Origin: Cellulophaga sp. BC115SP
GTDB lineage: Bacteria > Bacteroidota > Bacteroidia > Cytophagales > Spirosomataceae
NCBI RefSeq assembly: GCF_009905545.1
Contig: NZ_JAAALB010000020.1
Location: 1 to 64,000, forward strand
DNA: 64,000 bases
Direction of reading: 5' to 3'
Shown here: piece after piece, positions 39,619-63,332 of the stretch
Position numbering within the stretch: position 1 is the stretch's first letter
How the letters are laid out: every line of letters begins with the position of its first letter
The notes under the pieces: generated by a model
Databases searched by the model: none
The model's input: only the letters and a program-made list of their open reading frames with translations
Told to the model about the DNA's origin: nothing
Made by a program: the position numbers and the translations under genes

Positions 39619-39722
39619 AAAAAGCAGGTCTTTGATGGTTAAAAACATTTTACCCCTCTTTGCCTTGTGCCTGTTGCCTAGTGCCTTCAACACAGAACTT
39701 AAATCTAATTCTCCATGATTAC

Positions 39723-41645: not shown

Positions 41646-41661
41646 AGTATGCTTTAAAATT

Positions 41662-41765: not shown

Positions 41766-41774
41766 GTACGTACC

Positions 41775-43400: not shown

Positions 43401-43430
43401 AATCCAGAATGTTAAATAGAATATTGGGGT

Positions 43431-46400
43431 TTAGAATGACAAGTTCAAGCCACCAGTGATTGTACCAAAAAATGGATAATCGTTTTGTGAACCGTTTCTT
43501 TGTTCTGGGTTAAAATAATTGTTAAATACGCCCAATCTTGTCAATGAATACACGTCTTGACCCGACACAAATACTCTTGCACGTGTGATACCAATTTTCT
43601 TTAATACGCTTGGTGGAACGGTGTAACCAATTTGAATATTTTTCAAACGAGCATATTGTCCATTCATAATCCATTTGTCGGAAGGTAAGTATCTAAAACC
43701 TCCTTGCAAATAGGGTCTTGGGAAAGTTGCATTTGGATTTTCGGGTGTCCAATAGTCGCGGTGTACCGCCAAAGGCTGTTTCCAAGATTGCGAAAGCGGT
43801 TCAAGTGCTTCACTGTTTGGCATAAATGAACGCTCGCCAACACCTTGAATAAAGGCGGTAAAATCAATAGATTTGTATTGGAATCCGAAATTTAGCCCAA
43901 ATACATACCTTGGTTGGTCAGTTCCCAACATGACCAAATCGCCTGGGTCTTCTGGTGTGCCTTTTCCTACCGTAATTTTTCCGTCACCATTTTGGTCTAC
44001 ATATTTGACATCGCCTGCTCCCGTACGACTATCTTGGAAAGCATGAGTTTTTACCTCGTCGTCGGTTTGGAAATATCCTTCTGTTTTATAACCCCAAATC
44101 GTATTGAGTGGATAACCTTCTAATAATGAGACCGTTCCAGCACCCAAAACTCTACGACCTGCGTAACTCATGAGTTTGTTTTGGTTGTCCGAAAGGTTAA
44201 ATCCAACGTTGTAGTTAAAATGTTCTCCGATTTTATCTCTAAATTTCACCTCAAGTTCCCAACCCCATGACTTCAATTCACCGTTGTTGATTTTAGGTGT
44301 TCCTACGCCAAACGTACTTGGTAACTGCAATGGAGTCAGCATATTACGATTATATTTTACGTAATAATCACCGCTGATTTGAAGTTTGTTTTTCAATAAA
44401 CCAATATCCAAACCTCCGTTGCTTGTTTCGATGGTCTCCCATGATAGATCCGAAGAAGGTACTACGCTTTGATAGAAATACGAAGTACGGGATTCTGGAC
44501 TACCCATAACTAAACTCGAACCTCTAGTCAGCAAATTGAGATAGTCGTAAAAGCCTATGCCCAAGGCATTTCCTAATTGTCCCCACGAGCCTCTAACTTT
44601 GAATTCAGAGAATAGACCGATGTTATTGCTAAACCATTTTTCATGGTGTAGATTCCATCCGACAGAGGTTGAAGGGAAAAACTTAATGCGTTTATCTGGT
44701 GCTAATCTTGAACTTTCGTCGGCACGAAATGTTGCTTCAAACAAAAATCTATCATCATAATTATAATTCAAGCGACCAAAATAAGATTGAAAAGCATAGG
44801 TGTTGATGGTTTCGCTGTTGCTCTTGGTTTTGTCATCGCCAAGGTTGAGTGTAGGTTGGTCATTACTTACTAGGCTCAATGAGGTTGTACTGGTAGAGGT
44901 AAAACGGCTGTCTTCCCATTGGTATCCGCCCATTACATGTATTTTGTTTTTCTTGATACTAAAGTCATAATCTGCCAATAATTGAATGTTGGTATTATTG
45001 GTAAATTCGTTGGTTACGGCATACGAGTTAGGATTATTTAGGTAAAAAACGGGAACAAATCTTCCCCAAAGTTCTACCTGACGGGCAAATCTTCTTCTTT
45101 CTCCAAAGCGATATTGCTGTCCTAATACTGCACGTAATTGTAATCCTTTTAGTACATCTTTTGCGGCTAAAGTAAATACTCCATCGAAGAAATTTCTATC
45201 CATATTGTTGTATCCACCTTCTTTTAGCAAGGCATAGGCATTGTTAGCCGACGAACCTGCACCACCGTTGAGTCTTCCTTCTGGTGTAAAAATAGGGAAA
45301 CGTGTACGCAAACGATATACCTGATATACCAATCCCTCGCCGTCGGTACTTGCCGATGAGGCTTGTTGGTCTTGCTTGGTATAGGCAATACGTGAATCCA
45401 AAGAAATATGCTTGGTCAGTTGTGAGCCTAAATTGAAACGAACGTTGTAACGATCAAGACGGTCGGGGCCTACTCTGAACAAACCTTGTTTGCCGTAATA
45501 GCCTAATGATACCAAGTAATTGGTTTTTTCATTTCCGCCTCTTGCAGAGAAGTTATGCGTTTGCATAGGCGTATATTTTCTAACCACTTGACCAATTTGA
45601 TCTTCTTGATTATAGAAAATATATCTTGTTGTGTCAGAAGGGTTTACAACATAAGGAACACCATCTCTGATACGTTGCAAATCATCGTCGGTATATTCAG
45701 GACCTGTTTTAGCATTTTTGCGTGCTAAGTTGGCATAAAGTGCTTCTTCCAAAAGCGGTAACCTTTCAGGAACATTGAGTGCCCAGTCTACCCCGATTTG
45801 ATTGGAATAATCAAAAACAGTTTTACCCGATTTACCTTTTTTAGTAGTAATCAAAATTACGCCGCCTGCTGCTTGAGCACCATAAATGGCTGCGGCGGCT
45901 GCATCTTTTAGTACACTGATATTCTCTATATCGTTGGGATTGAGGGTTTGTAAAGTAAAACTAGAAACCGTCACCCCGTCGACTAGTACCAATGGATCTA
46001 CGTTGCCATTGGCAGAAGTAGCTCCACGAATCTGAATTCCAATACCTTCGTTGCCTGGTTGCCCAGTACCACGAGTGATAATCAAGCCAGAAGTGACACC
46101 TTGCAAGGCATTAGCTACGTTTGACACAGGACGGTTTTCGATAACTTTTGAATCAATCGTTGAAACAGCTCCCGTCAAATTCGCCTTCTTTTGAGTACCA
46201 TAACCTACCACAACCACTTCATCAAGTGATTTATTGTCCGATTCGAGTATTACGTTGATGATACTTTGAGAACCTACCGCTACTTCTTTACTCACAAATC
46301 CTACAAAAGAGAAGACCAATACCGCACCACTATTGGGAACATTGATTTTGAAACGACCAGCCCCATCAGAATTTACACCTCGTGTAGTACCTTTTAGAGC

Positions 46401-46961
46401 GATATTTACCCCAGCTAGTGGTTCGCCTTTTTCGTCGGTTACCTTTCCCGATACGCTTTGTTCCATCACCACTTGCAATTGCGCTGGTGAAAGCATCGGA
46501 GCATTGGTATTGAGTACAACGGGATGTTCTGAGGAAATAATTTTAGGTAAAAAATCTTCTTTTGTTGAACTGTTCTTGGTGTCTGATGATGGTGAAGGAA
46601 ATTTTTCAACAATCAAATAGGCACCTGATTTTGACTTTTTGTACTTTAATTTTGTGGATTCTAAGAGTCTTTCGAGATTGTTTTCGATTTTTTGATTCCA
46701 GTCTACTACTTGTTGATTGACGGTTACTTTTTCGATTGTCCCTCCTTCAAACAAAATGTCGACACGATAGTGATTTTTTAATTGTCCGAGCACCTCTCTG
46801 AGTTTTTGGGTGTTGCTTGTCAAATGTTGCTCAGTTTTAGTTCTGCTCAAGATATTTTTTTGTGCCATAGCAAATACTTGAGCATTACACGGCTGTCCAC
46901 CCAAAGCCATTGTGCTGAGTAACACGCTGGCTTTGAGTATTGCTGGTAAAGCTAGATTCAT
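43431..46961 (-). CDS. SusC/RagA-family TonB-linked transporter of the lyase locus, with STN domain
   Basis: This 1176-residue outer-membrane transporter has a signal peptide (to about CNAQ, residue 28), STN signalling domain (about 50-120; LREVLGQLKNHYRVDILFEG), CarboxypepD_reg-like domain (about 168-245; SGKVTDEKGEPLAGVNIALK), DEVVVVGYGTQKKANLTGAV before the plug, the plug, and a barrel ending GGLNLSF. The STN domain fits the FecR/sigma pair encoded just upstream. It lies 31 nt after FecR. It is clearly diverged from the SusC at 27.5 kb and not a recent copy. Confidence 0.93.
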   Translation of the reverse strand: MNLALPAILKASVLLSTMALGGQPCNAQVFAMAQKNILSRTKTEQHLTSNTQKLREVLGQLKNHYRVDILFEGGTIEKVTVNQQVVDWNQKIENNLERLLESTKLKYKKSKSGAYLIVEKFPSPSSDTKNSSTKEDFLPKIISSEHPVVLNTNAPMLSPAQLQVVMEQSVSGKVTDEKGEPLAGVNIALKGTTRGVNSDGAGRFKINVPNSGAVLVFSFVGFVSKEVAVGSQSIINVILESDNKSLDEVVVVGYGTQKKANLTGAVSTIDSKVIENRPVSNVANALQGVTSGLIITRGTGQPGNEGIGIQIRGATSANGNVDPLVLVDGVTVSSFTLQTLNPNDIENISVLKDAAAAAIYGAQAAGGVILITTKKGKSGKTVFDYSNQIGVDWALNVPERLPLLEEALYANLARKNAKTGPEYTDDDLQRIRDGVPYVVNPSDTTRYIFYNQEDQIGQVVRKYTPMQTHNFSARGGNEKTNYLVSLGYYGKQGLFRVGPDRLDRYNVRFNLGSQLTKHISLDSRIAYTKQDQQASSASTDGEGLVYQVYRLRTRFPIFTPEGRLNGGAGSSANNAYALLKEGGYNNMDRNFFDGVFTLAAKDVLKGLQLRAVLGQQYRFGERRRFARQVELWGRFVPVFYLNNPNSYAVTNEFTNNTNIQLLADYDFSIKKNKIHVMGGYQWEDSRFTSTSTTSLSLVSNDQPTLNLGDDKTKSNSETINTYAFQSYFGRLNYNYDDRFLFEATFRADESSRLAPDKRIKFFPSTSVGWNLHHEKWFSNNIGLFSEFKVRGSWGQLGNALGIGFYDYLNLLTRGSSLVMGSPESRTSYFYQSVVPSSDLSWETIETSNGGLDIGLLKNKLQISGDYYVKYNRNMLTPLQLPSTFGVGTPKINNGELKSWGWELEVKFRDKIGEHFNYNVGFNLSDNQNKLMSYAGRRVLGAGTVSLLEGYPLNTIWGYKTEGYFQTDDEVKTHAFQDSRTGAGDVKYVDQNGDGKITVGKGTPEDPGDLVMLGTDQPRYVFGLNFGFQYKSIDFTAFIQGVGERSFMPNSEALEPLSQSWKQPLAVHRDYWTPENPNATFPRPYLQGGFRYLPSDKWIMNGQYARLKNIQIGYTVPPSVLKKIGITRARVFVSGQDVYSLTRLGVFNNYFNPEQRNGSQNDYPFFGTITGGLNLSF

Positions 46962-46992
46962 AGAAAATTTATTTAGAAGGTAATGGAATATT

Positions 46993-47988
46993 TTACTTCT
47001 CAGAAAGCACGAAAGTATTTCCTGTTTTGGATAATTTGAGGTCTAATAATTCTACAATGGTATTTAGCAATTCTTCTGCATTTTGGGCTTTATAGGAACC
47101 TACAAGGGTTTTTTTAGCCAAGGAATCACTTTGTAATTTTACTTTTACGCCATAATTTTCTTCCATAATTTGAGTAAACTCAAACAGGTTGGTATCTTCA
47201 AAAATCAATCTGTTTTGTTGCCATGCAATAATAGGGTCAAAGGTCTTGGCGGTATCTTTTTGTACATGATTTCGAATATCAAGCTTGACCAACTCGCCAG
47301 GACGCATGGTGATTTCTTTTTTGACTTTGTTTTCTTGATATTCTAATCTTACTTTTCCTTTATTGAGCATTACTTTTGCGCCTCTTTCTCGACTAAAGAC
47401 ACTAAATTCTGTACCTAATACCACCACTTCAAAATTACGTTGCGTTTTTACGATAAACTTCTGATTGTCAGGTGTATGGGTAACCGAAAATACAGCTTCG
47501 CCGATTAGCTCCACTTCTCTGTTTTTAGTGCCAAATCCAAATCTTGGGACTTTCAGGGTTGAATTGGCATTGAGTGTTACCATGGTGCCATCGACCAATT
47601 GAATTTTATCCACTTGACCAAAGTTCGTCTCATAAATTTGATATTGAAAATGGTCTCTAAAATACCAAGAACCTAAACCAATCATCAAACATGCTGCTGC
47701 TATTTGGCTGATTTTGAACCATATATTGCTTTTGTCCTCTGTTTCATTATCTATAGCAGTAATGACATCATGGTCGGTTTGTTCCATGATTTGTTTAAAA
47801 TCTTGGAGGCGTTTTTCTACAGATGGATTGTATTGAGGATGTTGTGTTTCCCATTCTAACAACCATAAATAAAACAATTCTTGGTTTTGCGTTTTTTTGA
47901 GCCATTCTTCTATATGTTGCTTTTGCAGAGGCGAACTTTTCCCTGCAAAATGCTCAAAAAGTATATGTCTATTCACTACAGATTCCAT
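46993..47988 (-). CDS. FecR-family anti-sigma factor of the lyase locus
   Basis: This 331-residue single-pass inner-membrane protein has a cytoplasmic N-terminus (1-91) containing the anti-sigma helices, a membrane helix (about 92-110; FKISQIAAACLMIGLGSWYF), and a periplasmic FecR domain (VDKIQLVDGTMVTLNANSTL, FIVKTQRNFEVVVLGTEFSV) with a C-terminal STN-contact region. It transmits occupancy of the SusC transporter to the sigma factor 30 nt upstream. All four genes (sigma, FecR, SusC, SusD) run in one direction with gaps of about 30 nt. Confidence 0.9.
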   Translation of the reverse strand: MESVVNRHILFEHFAGKSSPLQKQHIEEWLKKTQNQELFYLWLLEWETQHPQYNPSVEKRLQDFKQIMEQTDHDVITAIDNETEDKSNIWFKISQIAAACLMIGLGSWYFRDHFQYQIYETNFGQVDKIQLVDGTMVTLNANSTLKVPRFGFGTKNREVELIGEAVFSVTHTPDNQKFIVKTQRNFEVVVLGTEFSVFSRERGAKVMLNKGKVRLEYQENKVKKEITMRPGELVKLDIRNHVQKDTAKTFDPIIAWQQNRLIFEDTNLFEFTQIMEENYGVKVKLQSDSLAKKTLVGSYKAQNAEELLNTIVELLDLKLSKTGNTFVLSEK

Positions 47989-48018
47989 AATTTTTCAACG
48001 TGTTTGTTTATCAGGTTT

Positions 48019-48675
48019 TTAAAATAAAAAGTATAGACTAATCCATAAAAATAGGTCTTTGAGGCCAAACTTCAGGGCTTGTATTGCTTTGTGAATATGT
48101 GTTTCGACGGTGCGATGTGAAATATCAAGCTCGTCGGCAATTTCTTTAGCCTTTTTACCTTCAAAGCGATTCATCAAAAAAACTTTTTGACACTGCTTAG
48201 GTAATGTATTGATTATCAGTTCAATTTTCTGGTGTAGCTCTTCATATTGCATAATTTGCTCTGGAAGTTCGGCACCTTCGATATGGTAGACTTTCTCAAG
48301 CGAATCACTTTGCTTGAACTCATTAGCTAGATAATTCAGGGCTCTGTTGCGAACTGCTCTAAACAAATAGGCACGATAAGATGTTGTGACCGATTGGTAA
48401 GCCTGAGTTTTCCAAAAATTACAAAAGACATCACTGACAATATCCTCGGCTACCTCTTTGATATATACGTACCTGATGGCGTGTGAGCAAAGCGCTCGAT
48501 AATACATCCCAAAAAGTATTTCACAACCTTTTTGTGGATGCGTCTGAAAAGCAAGCTTTGCCGCCAGTTCAGCTCCATCAATAATTCTCCCCTCTGTTTC
48601 TGGTTGTGGCTCTACAAATTCCAAAGCTGGATTATCATTTTCAGTAGTTATAGATTTAGGTTCTTGACGAATCAT
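48019..48675 (-). CDS. ECF RNA polymerase sigma factor of the lyase locus
   Basis: This 218-residue ECF sigma factor has region 2 (about 55-125; GCEILFGMYYRALCSHAIRY, EDIVSDVFCNFWKTQ) and region 4 (about 160-210; LPKQCQKVFLMNRFEGKKAKEIADEL, HRTVETHIHKAIQALK). I use the ATG at 48675; a GTG 15 nt upstream is possible. It should activate this locus when the cognate receptor signals through FecR. The 442-bp gap upstream contains heptamer repeats and a hairpin but no gene. Confidence 0.9.
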   Translation of the reverse strand: MIRQEPKSITTENDNPALEFVEPQPETEGRIIDGAELAAKLAFQTHPQKGCEILFGMYYRALCSHAIRYVYIKEVAEDIVSDVFCNFWKTQAYQSVTTSYRAYLFRAVRNRALNYLANEFKQSDSLEKVYHIEGAELPEQIMQYEELHQKIELIINTLPKQCQKVFLMNRFEGKKAKEIADELDISHRTVETHIHKAIQALKFGLKDLFLWISLYFLF

Positions 48676-48831
48676 AGTATAGTCTTTCACACATTTTGAT
48701 GCTATTATACTGTAAAGACAAAAATGGTGTAAAAACTACGTAGTGAAAAATGAGATTTTTTTAAAAATTTTAAGAAAAAGTATTTTATATCTAATTTTTT
48801 AGGATTGATATTGGAAATTGTACCATAAAAA

Positions 48832-48857
48832 AGGTGCTGAATAAGTATCCAGCACCT
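48832..48857 (-). terminator. Hairpin downstream of the sulfatase gene
   Basis: AGGTGCTG (48832-48839) pairs with CAGCACCT (48850-48857) across a 10-nt loop, flanked on the minus-strand exit side by a T-run (complement of CATAAAAA). It lies about 260 nt beyond the sulfatase stop and about 155 nt before the sigma factor start, so it could end the sulfatase transcript. Confidence 0.55.
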
Positions 48858-48910
48858 GTGTAAAAAGCATCAATTTGGGATGTTGTATTTTTGATTGCGG
48901 AAGTATAGCT

Positions 48911-49117
48911 ATCCAAAATCCCGAAATCAACAATCCCAAATCAGAACTTTACGAAGGAATTCTAACTATTGCGGATTTGGGATTTCTGATTTCGGAAATA
49001 AAGTAAAATACCTTTATTTTTTACAAAATATAGAAGTTTACACTTCCGAAATCCAACATCCGATATCCGAAATAAATGGTTTTTATAATCCTTCGTACAG
49101 TCCTGATCCCAAATCCG
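48911..49117. repeat. Phased heptamer repeat field with internal inversion, abutting the sulfatase stop
   Basis: Blocks in 7-bp phase include ATCCAAA, ATCCCGA, AATCAAC, AATCCCA, AATCAGA (from 48911) and TTGCGGA, TTTGGGA, TTTCTGA, TTTCGGA (from about 48969). Then come ACTTCCG, AAATCCA, ACATCCG, ATATCCG and, nearest the gene, CCTGATC, CCAAATC. The second block is the reverse-complement sense of the others: CGGATTTGGGAT (48972-48983) matches ATCCCAAATCCG (49106-49117) exactly. The field ends at the sulfatase stop codon. Confidence 0.65.
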
Positions 49118-50743
49118 TTATCGGAAGATTTTTCCACTCTTTTCTAGTTCTTTGTATTTGGCAATATACATTTTGTCTAGCTCTTCTGAGTCTTTGTATT
49201 TGATACGTAATTGGGCTAGTTTTTTATGTAAATCTGCTTTGATTTTGGCATAGGCAGGGTCATTATAGACGTTTTTGAGCTCGTTTTTATCTTTTCTTCT
49301 ATCATATAATTCCCATTCATCTACATCATAATAGAAGTGGATAAGCTTAAATTGTTCCGTTACAATACCATAATGGCGTTTTACCATGTGTACACTTGGG
49401 TATTCGTAATAGTGATAATAAGCGGCATCTCTAAAGTTTTTGCCTTGCCCTTTAAAGATAGGAATCAGACTTTCGCCTTGCATATCTGAAGGAGGTTTGA
49501 TACCCGCTGCTTCAAGGAAAGTCTGCGCAAAATCCAGATTCTGAACCATCTGAGAGTTTTTAGAGCCTGCTTTGATAATCCCTGGCCATTTTACGATTAA
49601 AGGAGTTTTGAAAGATTCATCAAAAATAAATCGTTTGTCAAACCAGCCGTGCTCGCCTAAGTAAAACCCTTGGTCAGAAGTATAAACGACAATTGTATTT
49701 TCATCCAAACCGTTTTCCTTCAAGAAATCTAAAACTTTTCCAACGCCCTCATCCACCGAAGCAATACAACCTAGATAGTCTTGCATATAACGCTGGTAAC
49801 GCCACTGCATTTTTTCTTTTTCGGTCATGCTTGGGTATTTCTTCATAAATTCTTCATTCATAGGTCGGTAAGTGTCGTCCCAAACCTTTCTTTGTTCAGG
49901 ATTCATGCGACCAACGGTTGCATTGTACAAAGCAATATCATAAGAATGAGATTCTTTGATACCCAATTTTTTCATATTTTCTGGGAAAACCTTGGAGTCT
50001 CCAGCCCAGTTCATGTGCTTAAGAAGATTCATTTCAGCTTCCTTGGCAGCACTTCCACGACCTTCGTAATTATCGAAAAGGGTACTTGGTTCTGGGAAAG
50101 TTTTATGAATAAATTCTTTATAATGACGTTCGGCAGGAATCCATTCGCGGTGTGGAGCTTTGTGCAAATATGCCAAAAAGAAAGGTTTATCTGGATCTCT
50201 TTCATTTTTGAGCCAGTTGAGCGTAATATCTGTGATAAGGTCAGTTACATAACCCATAAGTTTTTTAGGACCTTCTTTTTTGGTAATGATGTCAGGATTA
50301 TAGTAATTACCTTGGTCTGGTAAAATCTGGAACTCATCAAAGCCTTTTGGATTATTACCAAAATGTAATTTTCCAAACATAGCTGTCTGATAACCATTGG
50401 CTTGTAATAGCTGAGGGAATGTAATATTAGTAGTGTCAAATGGAAAATAGTTGTCAACCTTTCCGTTGATATGACTATGTTTTCCTGTTAAAATTACTGC
50501 TCGTGAAGGCGCACAAATCGAGTTAGTTACGCAAGCATTGGTAAAAAGCATACCATCTTTGGCGATTCTGTCGATGTTGGGTGTGCTTGTGAGACGTTTA
50601 TCATAAGCTGAAATCGCCTGATAAGCATGGTCGTCAGACATGATAAAAACAATATTCGGACGTTTGGGCTTATGCGGTTTTAGTGCCATAAATACACTAA
50701 CTGTACCTACTAGTAGTAGTAGGATAACGGAAATTTTTTTCAT
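49118..50743 (-). CDS. Family S1 sulfatase (formylglycine-dependent)
   Basis: This 541-residue exported sulfatase hydrolyses sulfate esters from a glycan. It has an N-terminal hydrophobic signal/anchor (about 4-21), calcium-binding Asp37-Asp38 in FIMSDDHAY, the formylglycine motif CAPSR (Cys77, within VTNSICAPSRAVILTGK), and further metal ligands in TSDQGFYLGEHGWFDKR. Activity requires a formylglycine-generating or anSME enzyme, not in this window. The DDHAYQAISAY and TNSICAPSR context resembles N-acetylglucosamine-6-sulfatases of heparan sulfate loci, which fits the lyase and GH88 nearby. It lies upstream of the sigma gene, in its own transcript. Confidence 0.9.
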   Translation of the reverse strand: MKKISVILLLLVGTVSVFMALKPHKPKRPNIVFIMSDDHAYQAISAYDKRLTSTPNIDRIAKDGMLFTNACVTNSICAPSRAVILTGKHSHINGKVDNYFPFDTTNITFPQLLQANGYQTAMFGKLHFGNNPKGFDEFQILPDQGNYYNPDIITKKEGPKKLMGYVTDLITDITLNWLKNERDPDKPFFLAYLHKAPHREWIPAERHYKEFIHKTFPEPSTLFDNYEGRGSAAKEAEMNLLKHMNWAGDSKVFPENMKKLGIKESHSYDIALYNATVGRMNPEQRKVWDDTYRPMNEEFMKKYPSMTEKEKMQWRYQRYMQDYLGCIASVDEGVGKVLDFLKENGLDENTIVVYTSDQGFYLGEHGWFDKRFIFDESFKTPLIVKWPGIIKAGSKNSQMVQNLDFAQTFLEAAGIKPPSDMQGESLIPIFKGQGKNFRDAAYYHYYEYPSVHMVKRHYGIVTEQFKLIHFYYDVDEWELYDRRKDKNELKNVYNDPAYAKIKADLHKKLAQLRIKYKDSEELDKMYIAKYKELEKSGKIFR

Positions 50744-50932
50744 AGATAGATAGTTAAAAGGTTGAAATTGGGTCTAAAAATAGAAAATCGCTTTAATGTT
50801 TCAAAGTGATACAATTAAATTTGCCCATATATTTTAAGCGAAAATGCCAAAATATGCTGCTGATTTTCACGACTCAAATGTAATACCGAATTAAACAAAA
50901 AGAGTCTTGATTTCTCAAAACTCTTTTGGGGC

Positions 50933-52009
50933 TTAAATAGAAATATAAACTTCTCCTTTACTTATCAATCTTGCTGTTCGAATAACGCCTGAGGATTTAA
51001 TGTCAACTTCTTGATTTTCAGTTAAGTATTCTAAATTTACAGTAAATTCACCTGAAGGGTGCTCGACTGAAAAGAACGAGCTATTTTCGGCGTAATGAGC
51101 AGTGTGTTGGGTAATACTCTTTGGTAAAATACAAGCTGTCGCCACCGAGACGGCTGCCAAAACGCCAATAGCTTCATGCACCACATGAGGAATAAACATT
51201 CGGGTATGTAATACTCCTCCTTGAATTGGTGGAGCAATCAGACACATTTTAGGAATGGTCTGCTGGCTTACATCACCGAGCTGCATCTTTTCACCAGCAA
51301 CGAGTCGAATAGCTTCAATCGTTTGTTTTAACGGCTCATTCGCTTCAAGTTCTGATATACTTTCGTAACCGCTCAACCCAAAGTCCGATGCTCGCATGAT
51401 TACCACAGGCATTCCATTGTCTATACAAGTTGCCTCTATACCATGGATTATATCGATATTATTACCCGTTGGCAAAAGTGCACCACAGGTAGCGCCAACG
51501 GTTTCTAAATAATTACAAATAATTGGCGCTGAAGTTCCAACCACACCATCAATTTTGGTATTTCCATTATATTGTACTTGATAATCAGGTGTTTGAACTA
51601 TCACTTCACAAATTCCACCTGTATTTACCATATTTATTTTGGCGCTTGTGGTTGGAGAATTAGCTTTGAAAATTCCGCTCTCAATCGCAAAAGGCAGAAC
51701 GCCCGCTAACATATTTCCACAAGTTTGGAGCGTCGAAACCTTACCTTTACCTATCTGAACTTGTACAAAAAAGTAGTCTAAATCTGCCTCAGGAATTGAC
51801 GAGGGACTCACAATGGCAATTTTACTACTCAATGACGAACCACCTCCCAAACCATCTATTTGTCGACCATCTCCTTGCGTTGTTCCTTCAATGGCTGCAA
51901 TAAGATACTGATTTCGAAGGTTTTCATCTTCAGGTAAATCTTTTTTCAAGAAAAAAAGCCCTTTTGAACTTCCCCCTCGAAAGTGCATATATGGAATGGC
52001 TAATTGCAT
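50933..52009 (-). CDS. PrpF-family isomerase, probable 4-oxalomesaconate tautomerase (GalD/LigU-like)
   Basis: This 358-residue protein has the diaminopimelate-epimerase-like fold of PrpF/GalD. It should interconvert keto/enol or double-bond isomers of 4-oxalomesaconate in the meta-cleavage of gallate or protocatechuate. Visible marks are RGGSSKG (11-17), GGGSSLSSK (55-63) and the catalytic-type cysteine in LQTCGNMLAG (Cys97). A plain PrpF (2-methylaconitate isomerase) cannot be excluded by sequence. The neighbouring hydratase and aldolase make the aromatic role far likelier. It overlaps the dehydrogenase gene before it by 10 nt, so the two are translationally coupled. Confidence 0.82.
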   Translation of the reverse strand: MQLAIPYMHFRGGSSKGLFFLKKDLPEDENLRNQYLIAAIEGTTQGDGRQIDGLGGGSSLSSKIAIVSPSSIPEADLDYFFVQVQIGKGKVSTLQTCGNMLAGVLPFAIESGIFKANSPTTSAKINMVNTGGICEVIVQTPDYQVQYNGNTKIDGVVGTSAPIICNYLETVGATCGALLPTGNNIDIIHGIEATCIDNGMPVVIMRASDFGLSGYESISELEANEPLKQTIEAIRLVAGEKMQLGDVSQQTIPKMCLIAPPIQGGVLHTRMFIPHVVHEAIGVLAAVSVATACILPKSITQHTAHYAENSSFFSVEHPSGEFTVNLEYLTENQEVDIKSSGVIRTARLISKGEVYISI

Positions 52010-52773
52010 GATTTTAAGAGCTTTTCAAGGTTGTTTCTTGTGCCACGAGTAACAATTGGTTCCACTCCTTTGTCTTCCAACATTTCGATGACGGCTTCCA
52101 TTTCGTGCATTCTACGCAAAGCGTGTGTACGACTTCCTTCCACAAATCGGTTGATAAGTTCGTCATTGCCACCAACCAGCGAACTAATTTGTCCTCTGAT
52201 GTAGGCTTCCATCCCGAAGGCTTCACCAGCTTCCATGGCTTCGCAGATAACTGCCGCTATGCCTTTGTAAACAATAGAGCGTAAAAGTTTTCGAGTTGCC
52301 GCATCTCCAATGACACTATTTTCGACTGAAGAAATATTGAGGTTCAAGGGTTTTACAAAATCTAAAAAATCTGAAGTATATTCTCCTGCCGCTAAAATAG
52401 GCGTTAAAATGCCTTTGGGAGGAACAGGCGCCATAATCGCCAAATCGATAACTTTGATTTGAGTCGGTGCTAGAATTTTGGCAATAGCGATTTTCTTTTG
52501 TGGTCCTGAGGTATTCATTTCACAAAAAAACTGATGTGGTTTTGCAACCGTCGCTATTTCTTGAGCAATTTCGATAGAGGCAGAAGACAAGTTAACACTC
52601 AATATCAAGTCCGCATAGCTTGCGGCCTCTGCGTTACCTTCAACTAACTGAATATCAGGATGTAATTTGTATCTAGGCTCAGGGTCGTAACCCCAGATTT
52701 GATGTCCTTTTTCTACTAAATCATTGGCAAAGCGAGCTCCAGCCTCGCCTAAACCTAATATGGCTATTTTCAT
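52000..52773 (-). CDS. 6-phosphogluconate-dehydrogenase-like NAD(P)-dependent oxidoreductase with DUF1932-type C-terminus
   Basis: This 257-residue cytoplasmic oxidoreductase has a Rossmann motif GLGEAG (7-12), the beta-hydroxyacid dehydrogenase-like stretch FCEMNTSGPQKK (about 87-98), and a helical C-terminal domain (KLLRSIVYKGIAAVICEAME, about 162-181) of the DUF1932 type. Its substrate is unknown. In this setting it may act on a carbonyl or hydroxy intermediate of the meta-cleavage route, perhaps replacing the LigC dehydrogenase, which is of a different family. It is separated from the aldolase gene by the 380-bp tandem-repeat gap and overlaps the tautomerase gene. Confidence 0.75.
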   Translation of the reverse strand: MKIAILGLGEAGARFANDLVEKGHQIWGYDPEPRYKLHPDIQLVEGNAEAASYADLILSVNLSSASIEIAQEIATVAKPHQFFCEMNTSGPQKKIAIAKILAPTQIKVIDLAIMAPVPPKGILTPILAAGEYTSDFLDFVKPLNLNISSVENSVIGDAATRKLLRSIVYKGIAAVICEAMEAGEAFGMEAYIRGQISSLVGGNDELINRFVEGSRTHALRRMHEMEAVIEMLEDKGVEPIVTRGTRNNLEKLLKSCN

Positions 52774-52817
52774 AAAATTCTTAATTTAAAACTTCAAAAT
52801 ATGCCTTTGTTAAAGTT

Positions 52818-53153
52818 ATGCCTTTGTTGGAGTTATCTCCAACAAACTTGCGTCAGCAACAAATCAACTATCTTGTATTCATCTAGTTTGACTAGTTGCT
52901 GACGCCTATATCGTTAGAGACAACTTTATGCTTTTGTTGGAATTATTTCCAACAAACTTGCGTAAGCAACAAACTAACTATCTTGTATTCTCTTAGCTTG
53001 GCTAGTTGCTGACGCCTATCTCGTTGGAGACAACTCCAACGATGGCGAAATCTCCAACAAACTTACGTCAGCAACAAATCAACTATCTTGTATTCTCTTA
53101 GCTTGGCTTGTTTCTGACGCCTATCTCGTTGGAGAAAACTCCAACGATGGCAC
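52818..53153. repeat. Three tandem copies of a 105-114 bp hairpin-bearing element
   Basis: Units at 52818-52927, 52928-53041 and 53042-53146 start with ATG-C/G and share the invariant AACTATCTTGTATTC (at 52866, 52976, 53081). In unit 1, TTTGTTGGAG/CTCCAACAAA (52823-52846) and GCGTCAGCAAC/GTTGCTGACGC (52850-52905) form two hairpins. Unit 3 has lost about 9 bp at its start. The array fills the 380-bp gap 52774-53153 between the aldolase and dehydrogenase genes; no gene is seen in it. Units are contiguous with no spacers, so it is not CRISPR. Confidence 0.85.
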
Positions 53154-53771
53154 CTAATATCCAAACTTCTCATCCCAACCATAAATCTGTAACGACGTCT
53201 TTCCTTGTCTAAGTTGTTCACGAACCTTTTCTTCTTTGACCTCTCGTGCAATGGCTCTCTCGATGGTTTCTTCGATTTTTTCTTGAGGAATAATCACAAC
53301 GCCATCTCTATCTCCAACAACAATATCACTGGGATTGATAAGAATATTACCTATCATAATGGGTTCGTTGAGCGTACCATCACCATAATTGGAAGTGCCA
53401 TGAATACACAGTCCCCGACTAAACACTGGAAAACCCATCGCTTCAATATCGTCGGCATCACGTACACAAGCGTCGATTACTAAACCATTGATTCCTTTGG
53501 TTTTAGCTCCTAAACTCATGAGATCACCCCAATATCCTGCCTCATAAAACCCTGAACAATTGACAATTAACACATCTCCAGCATTTGCATAAGCATAGGC
53601 ACGATGCAAGAGCATATTGTCGCGAGGCATAGTCTGAACAGTGTACGCAGGTCCGCAGACTTTCATATTTTTCGCAATCGGCTTGATAGCTGAGGGTAAA
53701 TTCCCTTTTTTACCCATGGCTTCATGCAATGTGGCAGCCGAAAATTTGGCAAGTTCTTGTATTAAATCCAT
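53154..53771 (-). CDS. RraA-family 4-carboxy-4-hydroxy-2-oxoadipate aldolase (GalC/LigK-like)
   Basis: This 205-residue class II aldolase would split 4-carboxy-4-hydroxy-2-oxoadipate into pyruvate and oxaloacetate, the last step of meta-cleavage of gallate/protocatechuate. The family also decarboxylates oxaloacetate. The RraA/HMG-CHA aldolase motifs are present: GYWGDLMSLGAKTKG (79-93) and DACVRDADDIE (100-110, with Arg104-Asp105 for substrate and metal). It begins 3 nt after the hydratase gene, so the two are co-translated. RNase E inhibitor RraA shares the fold, but the operon makes the aldolase role the better reading. Confidence 0.85.
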   Translation of the reverse strand: MDLIQELAKFSAATLHEAMGKKGNLPSAIKPIAKNMKVCGPAYTVQTMPRDNMLLHRAYAYANAGDVLIVNCSGFYEAGYWGDLMSLGAKTKGINGLVIDACVRDADDIEAMGFPVFSRGLCIHGTSNYGDGTLNEPIMIGNILINPSDIVVGDRDGVVIIPQEKIEETIERAIAREVKEEKVREQLRQGKTSLQIYGWDEKFGY

Positions 53772-53774
53772 AAC

Positions 53775-54494
53775 TTAAAAAATGGTATTAGTGACTCTTG
53801 GTACTTGACTTTGATGCGCTTCGGCAAACTGAACATTTTTTTGTCCAGAAATTCTTCTTGCATGATTCCCACGACGTGAGGCTAACTCGGCATAATAATC
53901 TCTGAGATACTTTTGAGCACCCATACAATCCATCGCTGCCATTTTTTTGTCCATTACCGAAGTAATATCTATATAGGTATCTGGTAAAAAGCCGCAAAGT
54001 TCTGGTTGGTGAGGCTCAAATGAATACCAAGCTGGCGGGTCGATATTCTTAAATGCACTCGGAACACCTGCTCCGCAAGACAACAATCTTGCACGCTGTG
54101 TGGCCTGAAATGCTAAGGGATGATCTGGATTAAAAGGGTCTTTTTCTGAGTGGGTTAGGATAACAGTCGGCTCAAAATCGCCGATAATATGGGTTAATTG
54201 GGTAATTCTTTCGTCTGAAATCAACATAGGATAATCGCCCCAGTCTAGAAATTGAATAGGAGTTTCTAAAATATCGGCTGCTTTTTGCGCCTGCTCGTGA
54301 CGGATTTCCTTTACATTATCGACACTTCTTTGCGGATTTTCTTTCCATAATTCCCCCGATTCGCCTCTTTCGCCGTAGGACATACAAATAACAAGGGTTT
54401 CGGCTCCTTCTTCAATGGCTTTGGCGATAGTTCCTGCTGAGCGCCAAACGAAATCTGCCGAATGAGCGCCTATGACTAATAATTTCTTTTTCAT
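53775..54494 (-). CDS. PIG-L/LmbE-family 4-oxalomesaconate hydratase (GalB-like)
   Basis: This 239-residue metal-dependent enzyme has the PIG-L fold. The usual AHPDDE motif is replaced by AHSADFVWR (His11, Asp14), a substitution I know from the Pseudomonas putida 4-oxalomesaconate hydratase GalB. The second zinc-site stretch is HSEKDPFNPDHPLAF. It would hydrate 4-oxalomesaconate to 4-carboxy-4-hydroxy-2-oxoadipate, substrate of the aldolase encoded 3 nt downstream. A sugar deacetylase role is less likely given the operon. Confidence 0.85.
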   Translation of the reverse strand: MKKKLLVIGAHSADFVWRSAGTIAKAIEEGAETLVICMSYGERGESGELWKENPQRSVDNVKEIRHEQAQKAADILETPIQFLDWGDYPMLISDERITQLTHIIGDFEPTVILTHSEKDPFNPDHPLAFQATQRARLLSCGAGVPSAFKNIDPPAWYSFEPHQPELCGFLPDTYIDITSVMDKKMAAMDCMGAQKYLRDYYAELASRRGNHARRISGQKNVQFAEAHQSQVPRVTNTIF

Positions 54495-54534
54495 GATAAT
54501 AATTGGTGGTTTTAAGAGACCTTATTTTCAAAAA

Positions 54535-54569
54535 ATTCAACACTCAATATTCAACGCTCAAAACTCGTA
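54535..54569. repeat. Phased heptamers overlapping the end of the dioxygenase gene
   Basis: Five 7-mers, ATTCAAC, ACTCAAT, ATTCAAC, GCTCAAA, ACTCGTA, run in phase across the stop codon (54558-54560) of the extradiol dioxygenase, so its last few codons lie inside the repeat. Confidence 0.6.
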
Positions 54570-55520
54570 GAGGTCTTCAGGCATGGGTGTTCCTCTTGTA
54601 TGAAAGCTATCAACGGTTTTGAGCCCCCAAGCTTGTCCTTTCGAGCGTTCTTCTCGATTCCAGACAACTGTCTCATAATCAGGGTCTAAAATGAGTCTTG
54701 CTGTAGGATTAGCTATTTCGATTCTATTTCCTCCAGGCTCATACACATACAAGAAAAACGTTTGCTGAATGGCGTGTTTATGTGGACCTGTTTCGATAAA
54801 AATACCATTTTCTAAAGCTATATCTGCTGCCAAAAGAACTTCTTCACGACTGTTTACGGCGTAAGTCAAATGATGAAAACGCCCCGATAAACCCGAATGA
54901 TCTTCGGTAATGGCAAGGTCATAAGATTTGGAATTTACCGAAACCCAAACACCTTTAGGCTGTTCATCAAATACAATAGTCTCGGTCATTCGCCCACCTA
55001 ATACCTTGAACTGGAAGTCACTAAAAGCGCGAATGTCTTTGGCTAGTAGATTGAGATGATCTATGCGCCTTACATTCATACCTCTGCCTGGAAATTTACT
55101 AGCGGTATTCTTAAGGGCAGATTTGTGTTGCTCGTCAGGTTGATATTTACGGGTATCAAAATAGATTTCAGCCAAATGACCATCAGGATAGCGAAACATA
55201 AAAGTATCACCATAGCCACATTCACCCTCGTGCCAACGAATGCCCAGATTAGCTTGCTGTATTGCTTTTACTCGTCTTTCTAGTGCAGATTTACTTCGGG
55301 CACGCCATGCAAAATGCCCAATTCCTGCATGGCGATGCGCTCGAAGCTTAAGCGTATAATGCTCATAATCGTCATAAGCACGCAAATAGGCACAATCTTC
55401 ATGGGTTTCGACAAGCATCATTCCGAGAATCTCCGTGAAAAAACGGATACTCTCATCGAGCTTTGGTGTGAGTAATTCTACATGAGCTAAGTGTGCCAAT
55501 TCCCAAGTAATATCTTCCAT
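54558..55520 (-). CDS. Type I (VOC-fold) extradiol ring-cleavage dioxygenase
   Basis: This 320-residue protein has two VOC modules (about 9-120 and 152-272), as in catechol 2,3-dioxygenase. The second module keeps the 2-His-1-Glu iron triad: His155 (RRIDHLN), His216 or His217 (RFHHLTYAV) and Glu268 (GGNRIEIAN). His247/His249 and Tyr258 are candidates for the acid-base residues seen in XylE-type enzymes. It should cleave a catechol-like ring next to its two hydroxyls. The following genes act on 4-oxalomesaconate, so the likely substrate carries a carboxylate (gallate or protocatechuate). It is first in the operon, divergent from an AraC-type regulator, with a TAATTTTG -7 box. Confidence 0.85.
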   Translation of the reverse strand: MEDITWELAHLAHVELLTPKLDESIRFFTEILGMMLVETHEDCAYLRAYDDYEHYTLKLRAHRHAGIGHFAWRARSKSALERRVKAIQQANLGIRWHEGECGYGDTFMFRYPDGHLAEIYFDTRKYQPDEQHKSALKNTASKFPGRGMNVRRIDHLNLLAKDIRAFSDFQFKVLGGRMTETIVFDEQPKGVWVSVNSKSYDLAITEDHSGLSGRFHHLTYAVNSREEVLLAADIALENGIFIETGPHKHAIQQTFFLYVYEPGGNRIEIANPTARLILDPDYETVVWNREERSKGQAWGLKTVDSFHTRGTPMPEDLYEF

Positions 55521-55553
55521 AACGAGTGGTTTTGTGTTGTTTAAAACGTATTA

Positions 55554-55561
55554 CAAAATTA
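55554..55561 (-). promoter_or_regulatory. Bacteroidota-type -7 promoter box for the meta-cleavage operon
   Basis: On the minus strand the sequence TAATTTTG fits the Bacteroidota consensus TAnnTTTG exactly and lies 34-41 nt before the dioxygenase start codon, in the divergent region shared with the AraC regulator. A clear TTG box at -33 is not seen, which fits a promoter that needs an activator. Confidence 0.5.
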
Positions 55562-55627
55562 GTTGTACGAGAAGGTTTTATTAGGAGACTTTTTGTACTT
55601 TTAAGGATAAAATTCGAACATAAGTCA

Positions 55628-56506
55628 ATGGATTCACTCAAGAAAATTACCAATTTTGATGGGCTTTATGGGGATGAAAATGGCAAATATTCGTCTGAAT
55701 ATTTGTTTTTAGAACCCATTTCTACAAGAAGTAAGGAATTTGATTGGCAAATCAAACCGCACATACATTTAAAACTTTTTCAAGTATTTATAGTAAAAAA
55801 AGGAACTCTTCGCTTTACAGATGCCATTTCTGAGTACGAATTAAACGCACCTTGTTTGATGGTAATTCCTGCTATGGCCTTACATGGACTGGTGTATCAT
55901 CCAGATATTGAAGGAAGTATTTTAACCTTATCAGAAAATATGATAGAAGATATTTTTGAAACATCTCACCCTATTTGGCAGACATTTGAAAAAGTGAGAG
56001 TTATTCAATCATTTGATGAAAATGGTACTTTCGAAAAAATGCTCTATCAGTTACAATTGGCAGAATACGAATTGTTCAGCGAAAATTCGGATAGGATGAT
56101 GATGATTAAAGCTTGTTTGACCCAGTTTTTTCTCCATATTCATCGATTGGCTACACAGGATGCCAACCTTTCTGGAGATTCCTTACAAATGGCATATTTT
56201 AGAAAGTTTTTACAAAACATCAAAAAATCCTCTCATCAAAAAAGTATTCCTGATTTTGCGGAAGAGTTGAGCATTTCTGCTGTTCACTTAAATAGAATTT
56301 GTAAAGCTATTGCTGGAAAATCAGCTATAGAGTTGGTACACCAACATTTGATTCAGGAAGCCCAAAAGTATCTGTTACATACGTCCTATTCTATTTCTGA
56401 AATTGCCTATTTGCTTGATTTTGAGTATCCTAATTATTTTGCCAAGCTCTTCAAAAAACATATTGGCTTATCACCCGCCGAATATCGACAAGTGGATAGG
56501 AGATAG
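55628..56506 (+). CDS. AraC-family regulator, PobR-like
   Basis: This 292-residue transcription factor has an N-terminal cupin-like sensor domain (about 10-140; IKPHIHLKLFQVFIVKKGTLRF) and two helix-turn-helix motifs (about 190-285; SIPDFAEELSISAVHLNRICKAIAGKS and SISEIAYLLDFEYPNYFAKLF). The layout matches PobR, the 4-hydroxybenzoate-responsive activator. The ATG at 55628 (MDSLKKITNF) is chosen; the frame is open further upstream, but that would run into the divergent promoter. It probably activates the divergent meta-cleavage operon, the pca operon, or both, on sensing an aromatic acid. Confidence 0.87.
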   Translation: MDSLKKITNFDGLYGDENGKYSSEYLFLEPISTRSKEFDWQIKPHIHLKLFQVFIVKKGTLRFTDAISEYELNAPCLMVIPAMALHGLVYHPDIEGSILTLSENMIEDIFETSHPIWQTFEKVRVIQSFDENGTFEKMLYQLQLAEYELFSENSDRMMMIKACLTQFFLHIHRLATQDANLSGDSLQMAYFRKFLQNIKKSSHQKSIPDFAEELSISAVHLNRICKAIAGKSAIELVHQHLIQEAQKYLLHTSYSISEIAYLLDFEYPNYFAKLFKKHIGLSPAEYRQVDRR

Positions 56507-58036: not shown

Positions 58037-59356
58037 TTATTGTATGAAATGAGCAGCCATTTCATGCGCAAAGCCAATAGAATTTTGTGGAGAAAATAGC
58101 TCCTGAATATGTGATTCTGAAAGAAACGACCTGATTTTAGTATTTTCTAAAACTAATGCTTTCAGGTGTTTTCCTTTAGCTGTCGCTTCCTGACAGAGTT
58201 CTTCTACCATTTCATGAGCTTCACTTTTACCTAGGGTTTCTGCCAAAGCAAAAGATAGATTTTCGGCATAAATCAATCCTTGTGTTATTTCTAAATTTGC
58301 TAACATTTTGTCAGGATTGACCTCTAATCCATTGGTCAAAATGCTCATTTGTCGCACACTTCCAGCGGTTAATTGAACCACCTGTGCAAGCGTTTCCCAT
58401 TCGGCATGCCATGTGCCAGTCGCTCGCTCGTGGTCTTGTATTTGAGCACTCAACAGTGTCGCAATCAAATTAGGAACACGTTGTGCATTGGCTAAAATAG
58501 CAATAGAAGATACAGGATTTCGCTTATGTGGCATGGTCGACGAGCCACCTTTGCCTTTGCCTGCTGGCTCAAATACCTCAGCGATTTCAGTTTGCATCAA
58601 CAGACTAATATCTTTGGCTATTTTTCCTAAGCTCCCCGAAAGAATCCCTAATGCAGAAGCAATTTCTATGACAAAATCTCGCTGAGTATGCCATGAAATC
58701 GGATGGTATTCGAGTCCCATATTAGCCGCCATACGCTGTGCAATGGCTATTCCTTTTTGTGGCATACTAGCCAAAGTTCCGACGGCACCACCCAGTTGTA
58801 GATAGTATTTTAAAGACGCTAATCGTTGTTTTGCTCTTTGAAGGCTATCTATCCAAATGGCTACTTTGTAATCAAAACTGATTGGGCGAGCTTGTTGCAT
58901 AAAAGAACGACCTATCAAAAAAGTGCCTTGATGCGCTAATGCTAAAACTTTTAATTGCTCAATACTTTGGGTCAATAAAGGAAGCATCAAATGAATAGCC
59001 TCTTTGCTCTGCAACATCATGGCTGTATCAATCACATCTTGACTGGTAGCTCCAAAATGAACAAATTTTGATGCATCAGCATTTTCCGCCTTTACAATGG
59101 CCGTTAGCTGCTTTACCAAAGGAATAGCAATATTTCCTCCCAAACCTACCTGTATAGCTATTTGAGAAATATCTATTTTTTCAACCTTACAACAATGTGC
59201 TATGATTTCTGAAAATTGACTAGGAATAAACTGGCATTCTGCCTGAGCTTTTGCTAAATGAGCTTCAAAATCAAGAAGATACTGAATACTTTTTTCAGAA
59301 GTATATAGTTCACTAATCCGATTGTCGTAAAATAAGGTTTGAAATAAATCATTCAT
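58037..59356 (-). CDS. pcaB: 3-carboxy-cis,cis-muconate cycloisomerase
   Basis: This 439-residue enzyme of the fumarase/aspartase superfamily converts 3-carboxy-cis,cis-muconate to 4-carboxymuconolactone. The superfamily signature GSSTMPHKRNP (about 266-276) is intact, as are VHFGATSQDVIDTAMMLQ (about 100-117) and the HAEWETLAQV region. The bacterial PcaB subgroup is supported by its place in a complete pca operon. It lies 22 nt after pcaF and is the last gene before a hairpin terminator. Adenylosuccinate lyase shares the fold but lacks this context. Confidence 0.9.
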   Translation of the reverse strand: MNDLFQTLFYDNRISELYTSEKSIQYLLDFEAHLAKAQAECQFIPSQFSEIIAHCCKVEKIDISQIAIQVGLGGNIAIPLVKQLTAIVKAENADASKFVHFGATSQDVIDTAMMLQSKEAIHLMLPLLTQSIEQLKVLALAHQGTFLIGRSFMQQARPISFDYKVAIWIDSLQRAKQRLASLKYYLQLGGAVGTLASMPQKGIAIAQRMAANMGLEYHPISWHTQRDFVIEIASALGILSGSLGKIAKDISLLMQTEIAEVFEPAGKGKGGSSTMPHKRNPVSSIAILANAQRVPNLIATLLSAQIQDHERATGTWHAEWETLAQVVQLTAGSVRQMSILTNGLEVNPDKMLANLEITQGLIYAENLSFALAETLGKSEAHEMVEELCQEATAKGKHLKALVLENTKIRSFLSESHIQELFSPQNSIGFAHEMAAHFIQ

Positions 59357-59378
59357 GAGCGATTGATTTTAGCTAAAA

Positions 59379-60587
59379 TTATACCTTCTCAATAATTACA
59401 GCATATCCTTGACCAACACCCACGCACATCGTACAAAGGGCGTAGCGTTTGTTTTGCTTATGTAATTCAAGGCTAGCCGTTTGAATTAATCGAGTACCTG
59501 ACATACCAAGTGGGTGACCCAAAGCAATAGCGCCACCGTTTGGATTGACTCTAGGGTCGTCGTCGGCTAAACCTAAGGCTCTTGTACAAGCCAAAGATTG
59601 AGCAGCGAATGCTTCGTTAAGCTCAATAATATCGATTTGGTCAAGGGTCAAACCTGCTTTTTCTAAGGCTTTTTGAGTTGCTGGAACTGGACCAATACCC
59701 ATAATTCTAGGCTCAACGCCAACGACTGCCGAAGATACAACTTTTGCCAAAGGTTTTAAACCATATTTTACAACAGCTTCTTCAGAGGCTAAATACATAG
59801 CGGCTGCGCCATCATTCAAGCCAGAAGCATTACCAGCAGTGACACTACCACCTTCCTTTTTAAAGGCTGGTCGCAATTGTGCTAGTTTTTCCAAGGAGGT
59901 TTGAGGTTTTATAAACTCATCTTTCTCAAACTGAACAATTTCCCCCTTTTTGGGACTAATACTTACAGCAATAATCTCTTCTGCTAATCGCCCATTTGAT
60001 TGCGCTTGCGAGGCTTTTTGTTGCGAGCGAAAAGCAAATAAATCTTGGTCTTCACGGCTTATACCATATAGCTCAACCAGATTTTCGGCGGTAACACCCA
60101 TGGCATCAGTGCCATACATTTTGTGCATCAGTGGATTGACAAAACGCCAACCAAAGCTCGAATCAAACATTTGGGCGTCATTTCCAAAAGGTTTTGATGT
60201 TTTTGAAATAACCCAAGGTCCACGAGTCATGTGTTCCATACCTCCTGCAATCATAATATCGGCATCACCTGTTTGAATCGCACGACTGGCATTTATCACC
60301 GCAGACATCCCCGAAGCACAAAGTCTATTGACTGTTTCGCCAGCAATAGTATAAGGTAATCCCGCCAGAAGTAATGCCATACGAGCGACATTACGGTTGT
60401 CTTCTCCCGCTTGGTTGTGACAACCCAAAATCACATCGCCAATGGTTTCGACAGGGATTTGTGGATTGCGAGCTACTAATTCTTTAATGGCTAGCGCCGC
60501 TAAGTCGTCGGCACGAACACTTGATAGACTTCCGCCGAAACTTCCGATAGGCGTACGGATGGCGTCGATGATATAGGCTGTTTTCAT
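59379..60587 (-). CDS. pcaF: 3-oxoadipyl-CoA thiolase
   Basis: This 402-residue thiolase II splits 3-oxoadipyl-CoA with CoA to succinyl-CoA and acetyl-CoA, the last step of the beta-ketoadipate pathway. The catalytic set is complete: Cys90 ([11 protein letters not shown]), His358 ([11 protein letters not shown]) and Cys388 (CVGVGQG). The motifs match PcaF/PaaJ; the latter differ mainly by pathway. Its start overlaps the end of the CoA-transferase gene (ATGA-type overlap, 60584-60587), so translation is coupled. Degradative acetoacetyl-CoA thiolases are similar, but the operon decides the name. Confidence 0.92.
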
Positions 60588-61930: not shown

Positions 61931-62049
61931 GATTTTTAAGTGATTTAGAAAGTAATCATGAAGTATTTCGACTTGAAAGTAAGCCTATATGTCAAAAGCT
62001 TTATCTGTTTGGGTCGATTTACAACAAATATTTACTTCATGATGCTTTT

Positions 62050-62613
62050 TTATACGTCAAAAAATACCGTCTCTTGTTCGCCTTGCATAACGATATCCCA
62101 TTGATACACAATACCTTCTGGGGTTTCTTGTCGTTGAGCAATGAGTGTGTTTTTTCTTTCTTCAGGAACAGTATTTAAAATAATATCCTTTTGATTTTCA
62201 GTTGTTTCGTCTGAAAAATAAAGCCTTGTATAAGCATGCGTCAACAGACCTCGCATAAAAACCACTACCGTAATATGAGGTGCTTGTCCGTCAACCGATG
62301 CGGGTTTGATAGTCTGAAAAATAAATTGTGCTTCTGGATCAGTGCCTGTCCCAAATCGCCCGAAACCCTTAAAGTCCGAATCTGTAGGGTTATATTGCCC
62401 TTTGGCATCTGCCTGCCAAATCTCAATCATCGCATCGGGGATTGCGTTTCCTTGTCCGTCAAGCACACGCCCTTTGATAGTAATAGGTTCGCCTTGCGTA
62501 CTCGACGTGCGCAAATTGCCCGAAGCAATACTGGTATGGTTATATAAATATTGTTGCGGACTGAGCCCATACGCAAAATATGGACCTACCGTCTGTGATG
62601 GAGTCTGTGTCAT
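62050..62613 (-). CDS. pcaG: Protocatechuate 3,4-dioxygenase alpha subunit
   Basis: This 187-residue intradiol dioxygenase subunit pairs with PcaH to open protocatechuate between its hydroxyls, giving 3-carboxy-cis,cis-muconate. The alpha-subunit start (TPSQTVGPYFAYGLSP) and the beta-sandwich core (RVLDGQGNAIPDAMIEIWQADAKG, FGRFGTGTDPEAQFIF, PHITVVVFMRGLLTH) are evident. It lacks the full iron-ligand set, as alpha subunits do. It overlaps the PcaH gene by 4 nt. The 119-nt gap after it shows no clear terminator. Confidence 0.93.
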   Translation of the reverse strand: MTQTPSQTVGPYFAYGLSPQQYLYNHTSIASGNLRTSSTQGEPITIKGRVLDGQGNAIPDAMIEIWQADAKGQYNPTDSDFKGFGRFGTGTDPEAQFIFQTIKPASVDGQAPHITVVVFMRGLLTHAYTRLYFSDETTENQKDIILNTVPEERKNTLIAQRQETPEGIVYQWDIVMQGEQETVFFDV

Positions 62614-63308: not shown

Positions 63309-63332
63309 GTGTTAAATGATTAAAGGTTTTGA

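Follow-up and report, generated by a model that had tools for sequence, protein, structure and literature searches.

Which aromatic ring is opened by an operon that joins a type I (VOC) extradiol dioxygenase to genes for the breakdown of 4-oxalomesaconate (OMA), with neither a LigC dehydrogenase nor a LigI hydrolase among them? The question is raised by five genes on the minus strand (55520-50933) of a 64,000-nucleotide stretch of Cellulophaga sp. BC115SP (contig NZ_JAAALB010000020.1, positions 1 to 64,000; hereafter the window). The initial annotation offered two answers: a gallate-like substrate that yields OMA directly, or an oxidoreductase with a DUF1932 domain standing in for LigC. We find the first favored by the linkage of tannase genes to related operons in two phyla, by a tannase in the window genome and by an adjoining pca cluster. 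The second is unsupported at this locus: searches turned up no 2-pyrone-4,6-dicarboxylate hydrolase, and DUF1932 is missing from three related loci. Judged from its context, the operon probably encodes a gallate (tannin) catabolic pathway in which a gallate dioxygenase of type I (VOC) opens the ring. That enzyme would be a non-homologous replacement of GalA/DesB, giving a known pathway a different first enzyme. Positions, strand and order of the five genes all agree with the initial annotation, and they are listed here in transcription order, with 4-carboxy-4-hydroxy-2-oxoadipate abbreviated to CHA.

54558-55520, minus: type I (VOC) extradiol ring-cleavage dioxygenase, proposed gallate dioxygenase (PF00903, two stretches)
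53775-54494, minus: GalB-type OMA hydratase, PIG-L fold (best solved relative 5cgz)
53154-53771, minus: CHA aldolase, RraA-type (NF006731; 3noj)
52000-52773, minus: NAD(P)-dependent oxidoreductase, NAD_binding_2 + DUF1932 (PF03446 + PF09130)
50933-52009, minus: GalD/LigU-type OMA tautomerase, PrpF family (NF033377; 6p3j)

Tannase genes adjoin the dioxygenase in two phyla

The best evidence for gallate is that two non-homologous tannases adjoin the same module in two phyla. In a survey of 222 genomes of the host's family (dioxygenase threshold E <= 1e-60), a recurrent gene upstream of the dioxygenase, either directly or across a transporter, encodes a protein that resembles solved tannases (6yq4, E 1.2e-135; 4j0c, E 5.4e-132) across most of the chain and is predicted to be a tannase. 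Tannase occurs in 18 of the 222 genomes, and 15 of these 18 also have the VOC dioxygenase, against 2.6 expected by chance (P = 5e-12, one-sided Fisher's exact test, kinship not corrected). In 11 of the 15 genomes with both (G433, G435, G437, G440, G503, G519, G541, G543, G551, G556 and G561), the two genes share a contig, with about 50-1400 bases between them; in G551 the tannase is distant (44%) and the dioxygenase falls on another branch of the tree. The second case is one pAt plasmid of Agrobacterium tumefaciens (walnut), where genes for PIG-L/GalB, the VOC enzyme (55%), CHA aldolase and OMA tautomerase are followed by a PF07519 tannase (437.9 bits) that is unrelated to the one linked in the host's family. 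An A. vitis plasmid bears the same module with a carboxylesterase in place of the tannase. The window genome has its own tannase on contig 13 (C13), with 510 amino acids, 60% identity and a match to 6yq4 (E 2.9e-143), and it is one of two genomes with a tannase in a sample of 395 genomes of the class. Within the genus, G512 and G513 have both tannase and dioxygenase, G510 has the dioxygenase only and G511 has neither.

In the pathway that we propose, the tannase, encoded elsewhere in the window genome or adjacent to the operon in 11 relatives, would release gallate from tannin, and the VOC dioxygenase would bind gallate via two hydroxyls on Fe(II). Extradiol cleavage would then yield OMA directly, because the cleaved carbon bears the third hydroxyl, and so neither LigC nor LigI would be needed. 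The later steps are those of the known gallate pathway: GalD would form the enol tautomer of OMA, GalB would hydrate this tautomer to CHA, and the aldolase would split CHA into pyruvate and oxaloacetate. We infer the substrate, the position of cleavage and the running of the pathway, and the predicted gene identities rest on similarity.

The dioxygenase and the OMA module

The two-module VOC dioxygenase with a 2-His-1-Glu triad, as initially annotated, is borne out: PF00903 matches twice, and the predicted iron ligands H155, H217 and E268 are conserved, as expected of a putative type I extradiol enzyme. PF00903 is the only domain found, and the LigB domain (PF02900) of type II enzymes (GalA/DesB) is missing. 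Across 71 rows of the dioxygenase family, H217, E268, H249 and Y258 are invariant and H155 is present in 70, one row being cut short. The score falls below the cut-off of the catechol 2,3-dioxygenase model TIGR03211 (297.7 of 320.2 bits) and below that of the homoprotocatechuate 2,3-dioxygenase (HPCD, HpaD) model TIGR02295 (178 of 321.4 bits). Moreover, position 200, aligned with the acid/base residue His200 of HPCD, for which several variants have been solved, is Tyr in all 71 family rows and His in three paralogue rows. Tyr is also found at this position in the closest solved chain, PDB 9wgj (E 1.7e-96, compared by sequence only), which is named 'Catechol 1,2-dioxygenase' and for whose code a literature search found no paper. 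An AlphaFold model (pLDDT 87.5, pTM 0.89) best matches the folds of the RHA1 2,3-dihydroxybiphenyl dioxygenase (3lm4) and AphC (7q2a), followed by LapB, XylE and HPCD; the fold search indicated no substrate. The first two share the VOC fold at 38% identity and differ in having His at the His200 position. In the tree, from which AphC and XylE were left out, the Thermaceae and Bacteroidota rows form separate supported groups. The closest named relative among the matches listed is the dioxygenase of Flectobacillus sp. BAB-3569 (98% identical).

The other four identities also held up on comparison with protein models and solved structures. The predicted hydratase matches the '4-oxalmesaconate hydratase' 5cgz (E 3.7e-65) over residues 3-237 of 239. 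The predicted aldolase scores 199.3 bits against NF006731 (cut-off 179) and matches 3noj (E 1.3e-40), and it stays below the LigK model TIGR02798 (186.3 of 304.5 bits). The predicted tautomerase scores 470 bits against NF033377 (cut-off 440) and matches 6p3j, a (4E)-oxalomesaconate delta-isomerase (E 2e-99). Putative OMA tautomerase, OMA hydratase and CHA aldolase, the set that characterizes the gallate pathway, are all present. The best solved matches of the oxidoreductase are uncharacterised (4ezb, E 7.4e-18); it is composed of NAD_binding_2 and DUF1932 and is not of the Gfo/Idh/MocA type of LigC. The DUF1932 enzyme may be an accessory in this operon, with a role on by-products or in a wider substrate range.

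Distribution of the operon

The OMA tautomerase model matches only 4 of the 395 class-sample genomes; three of them (the window genome, G242 and G387) have a close VOC relative adjacent, and the fourth, G306, has none. The VOC dioxygenase is present in 32 of the 222 genomes of the host's family. When the surroundings of the other 31 loci were compared (matches >100 bits), the gene set was found to recur, as the initial annotation had asked of relatives, and the five-gene order is therefore not due to chance. GalB stands beside the dioxygenase in 31 of 31 loci, accompanied by the aldolase in 29, the tautomerase in 28, DUF1932 in 26, a tannase in 11, a carboxylesterase in 11 and a major facilitator superfamily (MFS) transporter in 10, and no LigB, LigC, LigI or DUF6282 match was seen in any of them. 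The missing aldolases and tautomerases (L175, L181, L187) are explained by loci that end at contig ends. DUF1932 is missing without such a cause in L178, L182 and L183, thus it is present in 26 of the 29 loci that can be judged. These three loci hold the VOC enzyme, GalB, CHA aldolase and GalD, and L178 and L182 also a tannase.

A wider scan of species genomes gave 584 loci, the best 80 of which were compared; several named Bacteroidota loci among them are family-survey genomes and were counted from the survey only. A GalB-like gene is present in the stretch at 33 of these 80 loci, 28 of which also have an aldolase-like gene. The pairing of dioxygenase and GalB is seen in Bacteroidota, Chloroflexota, Deinococcota, Armatimonadota, Acidobacteriota and Pseudomonadota; some of these loci come from metagenome bins. 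The loci without GalB include those of Bradyrhizobium, which by title make up 37 of the 80. The Bradyrhizobium homologs (L062, L053 and others; 58-59%) stand without the OMA module, near a large gene that by eye resembles a molybdopterin dehydrogenase and a gene for a 495-residue protein without a Pfam match.

Classical lig routes and the adjoining pca cluster

The protocatechuate 4,5-pathway proceeds through LigAB, LigC, LigI and LigU/J/K and has the OMA module in common with the operon. A complete LigAB/LigC/LigI route elsewhere in the genome, named by the initial annotation as evidence that would overturn it, was searched for across the window genome (7.08 Mb, 206 contigs, 99.93% complete) and not found; none of LigAB, LigI and a close LigC was detected there. 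Both PF02900 proteins of the genome have YgiD as their best solved match (E 6.9e-68 and 3.1e-81), which rejects them as LigAB. An Azospirillum LigI query, which detects a Roseomonas gene at 48%, found no match in the genome in a search run without a control genome, and none of its four PF04909 proteins was matched by that query; one of the four, examined further, has an uncharacterised protein as its best solved match. A LigC query gave 13 partial matches of at most 33% identity, the best being 29% over 191 residues (E 7.2e-13). A DUF6282 search, run without a positive control, found no match in the genome. Across the 222 family genomes, an Azospirillum LigB query, which detects Roseomonas LigB at 48% and whose detection of GalA-type enzymes was not tested, gave one marginal partial match (E 7.9e-4), and the genome concerned has no VOC enzyme.

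Beside the operon, from window position 58037 to 64000 and on to about 65700 of C111 (L025 1334-3704), lies a pca cluster with pcaB, pcaF, fused pcaIJ, pcaG, pcaH and fused pcaDC; next comes a PobA-like gene. All of these score above NCBIfam cut-offs, which for pcaIJ and the PobA-like gene are those of subfamily models: the fused pcaDC scores 410.2 bits against NF051488 (cut-off 390), and the PobA-like gene scores 569.9 bits against NF006091 (cut-off 351) and does not reach the equivalog TIGR02360 (502.1 of 538.7). By these scores the cluster is a predicted protocatechuate 3,4-route. Protocatechuate is thus unlikely as the substrate of the operon, as a second route would be redundant.

Alternative substrates

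Several observations weigh against gallate. The proposed pathway requires no oxidoreductase, yet DUF1932 is kept in nearly all judgeable family loci. Tannase is missing, at the threshold used, from 17 of the 32 dioxygenase genomes, the dioxygenase is missing from 3 of the 18 tannase genomes (G442, G452 and G606), and the tannase of the window genome lies on a different contig from the operon. No GalB is seen in the fetched stretch at 47 of the 80 best loci of the wider scan, so the dioxygenase can occur without the OMA module. Finally, in 4 of 6 Thermaceae loci the enzyme (about 60% identical, with the same conserved pocket stretch) has a PobA-like gene for a neighbor, an indication of protocatechuate. 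The operon would then carry out protocatechuate 4,5-cleavage, with the VOC enzyme forming the semialdehyde and DUF1932 oxidizing it in place of LigC on the way to OMA. The frequency of DUF1932 in the family agrees with this, as do the Thermaceae loci L049, L105 and L113, which combine VOC, DUF6282, GalB, CHA aldolase, DUF1932 and a PobA-like gene, with Rieske genes in L049 and L113. On Roseomonas pRo-1, DUF1932 overlaps a LigI-like hydrolase gene, with LigA- and LigB-like genes close by; no match to a LigC query was found in this 19-kb stretch. However, the window operon is adjoined by the pca 3,4-pathway with its PobA-like gene, neither a LigI-like nor a DUF6282 protein was found by the genome searches (made without a positive control), and L178, L182 and L183 do without DUF1932 while two of them carry a tannase. 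In addition, Azospirillum L119 has a Gfo/Idh-type LigC candidate as well as DUF1932, the latter at the edge of the stretch. We therefore regard protocatechuate as an unlikely substrate here.

Two further explanations are less probable still. A carboxylesterase in or near the operon at 11 of the 31 family loci would fit a substrate other than gallate itself, 3-O-methylgallate or another derivative, from which an esterase would remove the ester before or after ring opening; the five operon genes, however, include neither a demethylase nor an esterase (no genome search for demethylases was made), and we hold this quite improbable. Least probable is a catechol or alkylcatechol 2,3-dioxygenase that lies beside the OMA module by chance. 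Its best named model is indeed catechol 2,3-dioxygenase, the nearest characterised folds are RHA1/AphC, LapB and XylE, and the wider-scan loci without GalB agree with such a function, but the TIGR03211 cut-off is not reached and GalB adjoins the enzyme throughout the family. To our knowledge, a catechol without a carboxylate cannot yield OMA.

The Thermaceae loci and a wider enzyme class

The Thermus/Meiothermus loci (L113, 8956-15355; L049; L105) form a candidate lig-free protocatechuate route. No tautomerase was found at the Thermus oshimai and Meiothermus loci that have DUF1932, DUF6282 and the PobA-like gene. A LigC-like role of DUF1932 is plausible in the Thermus/Meiothermus and Roseomonas loci, where it fits better than at the window locus. 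Tentatively, and with more doubt than confidence, the Tyr200 VOC clade, often labelled catechol 2,3-dioxygenase, could represent a second class of dioxygenases, non-homologous to the first, that open the ring of gallate or protocatechuate and occur with the module in six phyla among the matches listed; in Thermaceae it might begin a protocatechuate route free of lig genes, with DUF1932 and DUF6282 proteins taking the parts of LigC and LigI.

Operon layout and surroundings

Three other features lie within or next to the operon.

52816-53140, no strand: 110-bp tandem repeat, 3 copies, within the operon (Tandem Repeats Finder score 448)
50898-50927, minus: terminator-like hairpin, 13-pair stem, just past GalD
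55526-56506, plus: divergent AraC-family regulator, start codon uncertain (HTH_18)

The hydratase and aldolase genes are 3 bases apart, and the DUF1932 and GalD genes share a 10-base overlap. The repeat takes up most of the 380-base gap between aldolase and DUF1932; elsewhere in the genus this gap is about 77 bases (G510) or about 120-150 bases (G512). Promoter and terminator scans of the region gave counts no different from shuffles (terminator-like sites: 4 observed, 3.9 in shuffles), and the hairpin is therefore of interest by its position alone. The AraC-family protein, whose nearest named model is HpaA (TIGR02297; 139.9 bits, cut-off 274.65), faces the operon and has a homolog at 25 of the 31 surveyed family loci; it is likely the local regulator.

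Further along C111 (about 70300-76500; L025 8301-14491) are an amidohydrolase gene, an MFS transporter gene and enoyl-CoA hydratase-, acyl-CoA synthetase- and short-chain dehydrogenase/reductase-like genes, which by eye resemble a CoA-dependent hydroxycinnamate route (the amidohydrolase alone was scanned). On the other side, window positions 38280-50743 hold a SusC/SusD-like pair, FecR-like and sigma-factor-like genes, two enzymes of glycan-degrading type and a sulfatase, by eye a glycan utilisation locus.

Relation to known systems and implications

The gal cluster of Pseudomonas putida KT2440 reportedly consists of GalA, GalB, GalC and GalD. The window operon shares homologs of GalB, the aldolase and GalD with this pathway, together with the proposed intermediates, whereas it has a VOC enzyme instead of the LigB-superfamily GalA and an additional DUF1932 gene. 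DesB of Sphingobium SYK-6, a gallate dioxygenase described as a type II extradiol enzyme (PMC3962378), performs the same reaction as proposed here and belongs to a different superfamily. AromaDeg files gallate dioxygenases, GalA included, under the LigB superfamily, and gallate is unnamed in the shown part of its list of VOC substrates (PMC4250580). The gallate dioxygenases named in the consulted portions of this literature are type II enzymes (PMC3962378, PMC4250580), and a literature search that covered few subscription journals returned no report of a VOC gallate dioxygenase among the matches listed.

Gallate, a building block of many plant tannins, is among the main products when tannins are degraded. 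If the dioxygenase opens gallate as proposed, gallate degraders would have been overlooked in genomes and metagenomes where the enzyme carries the label catechol 2,3-dioxygenase or plain VOC protein. Tyr at the much-studied second-sphere His site would be a naturally occurring variant for enzymologists to study, and the partner proteins with DUF1932 and DUF6282 would become enzyme candidates.

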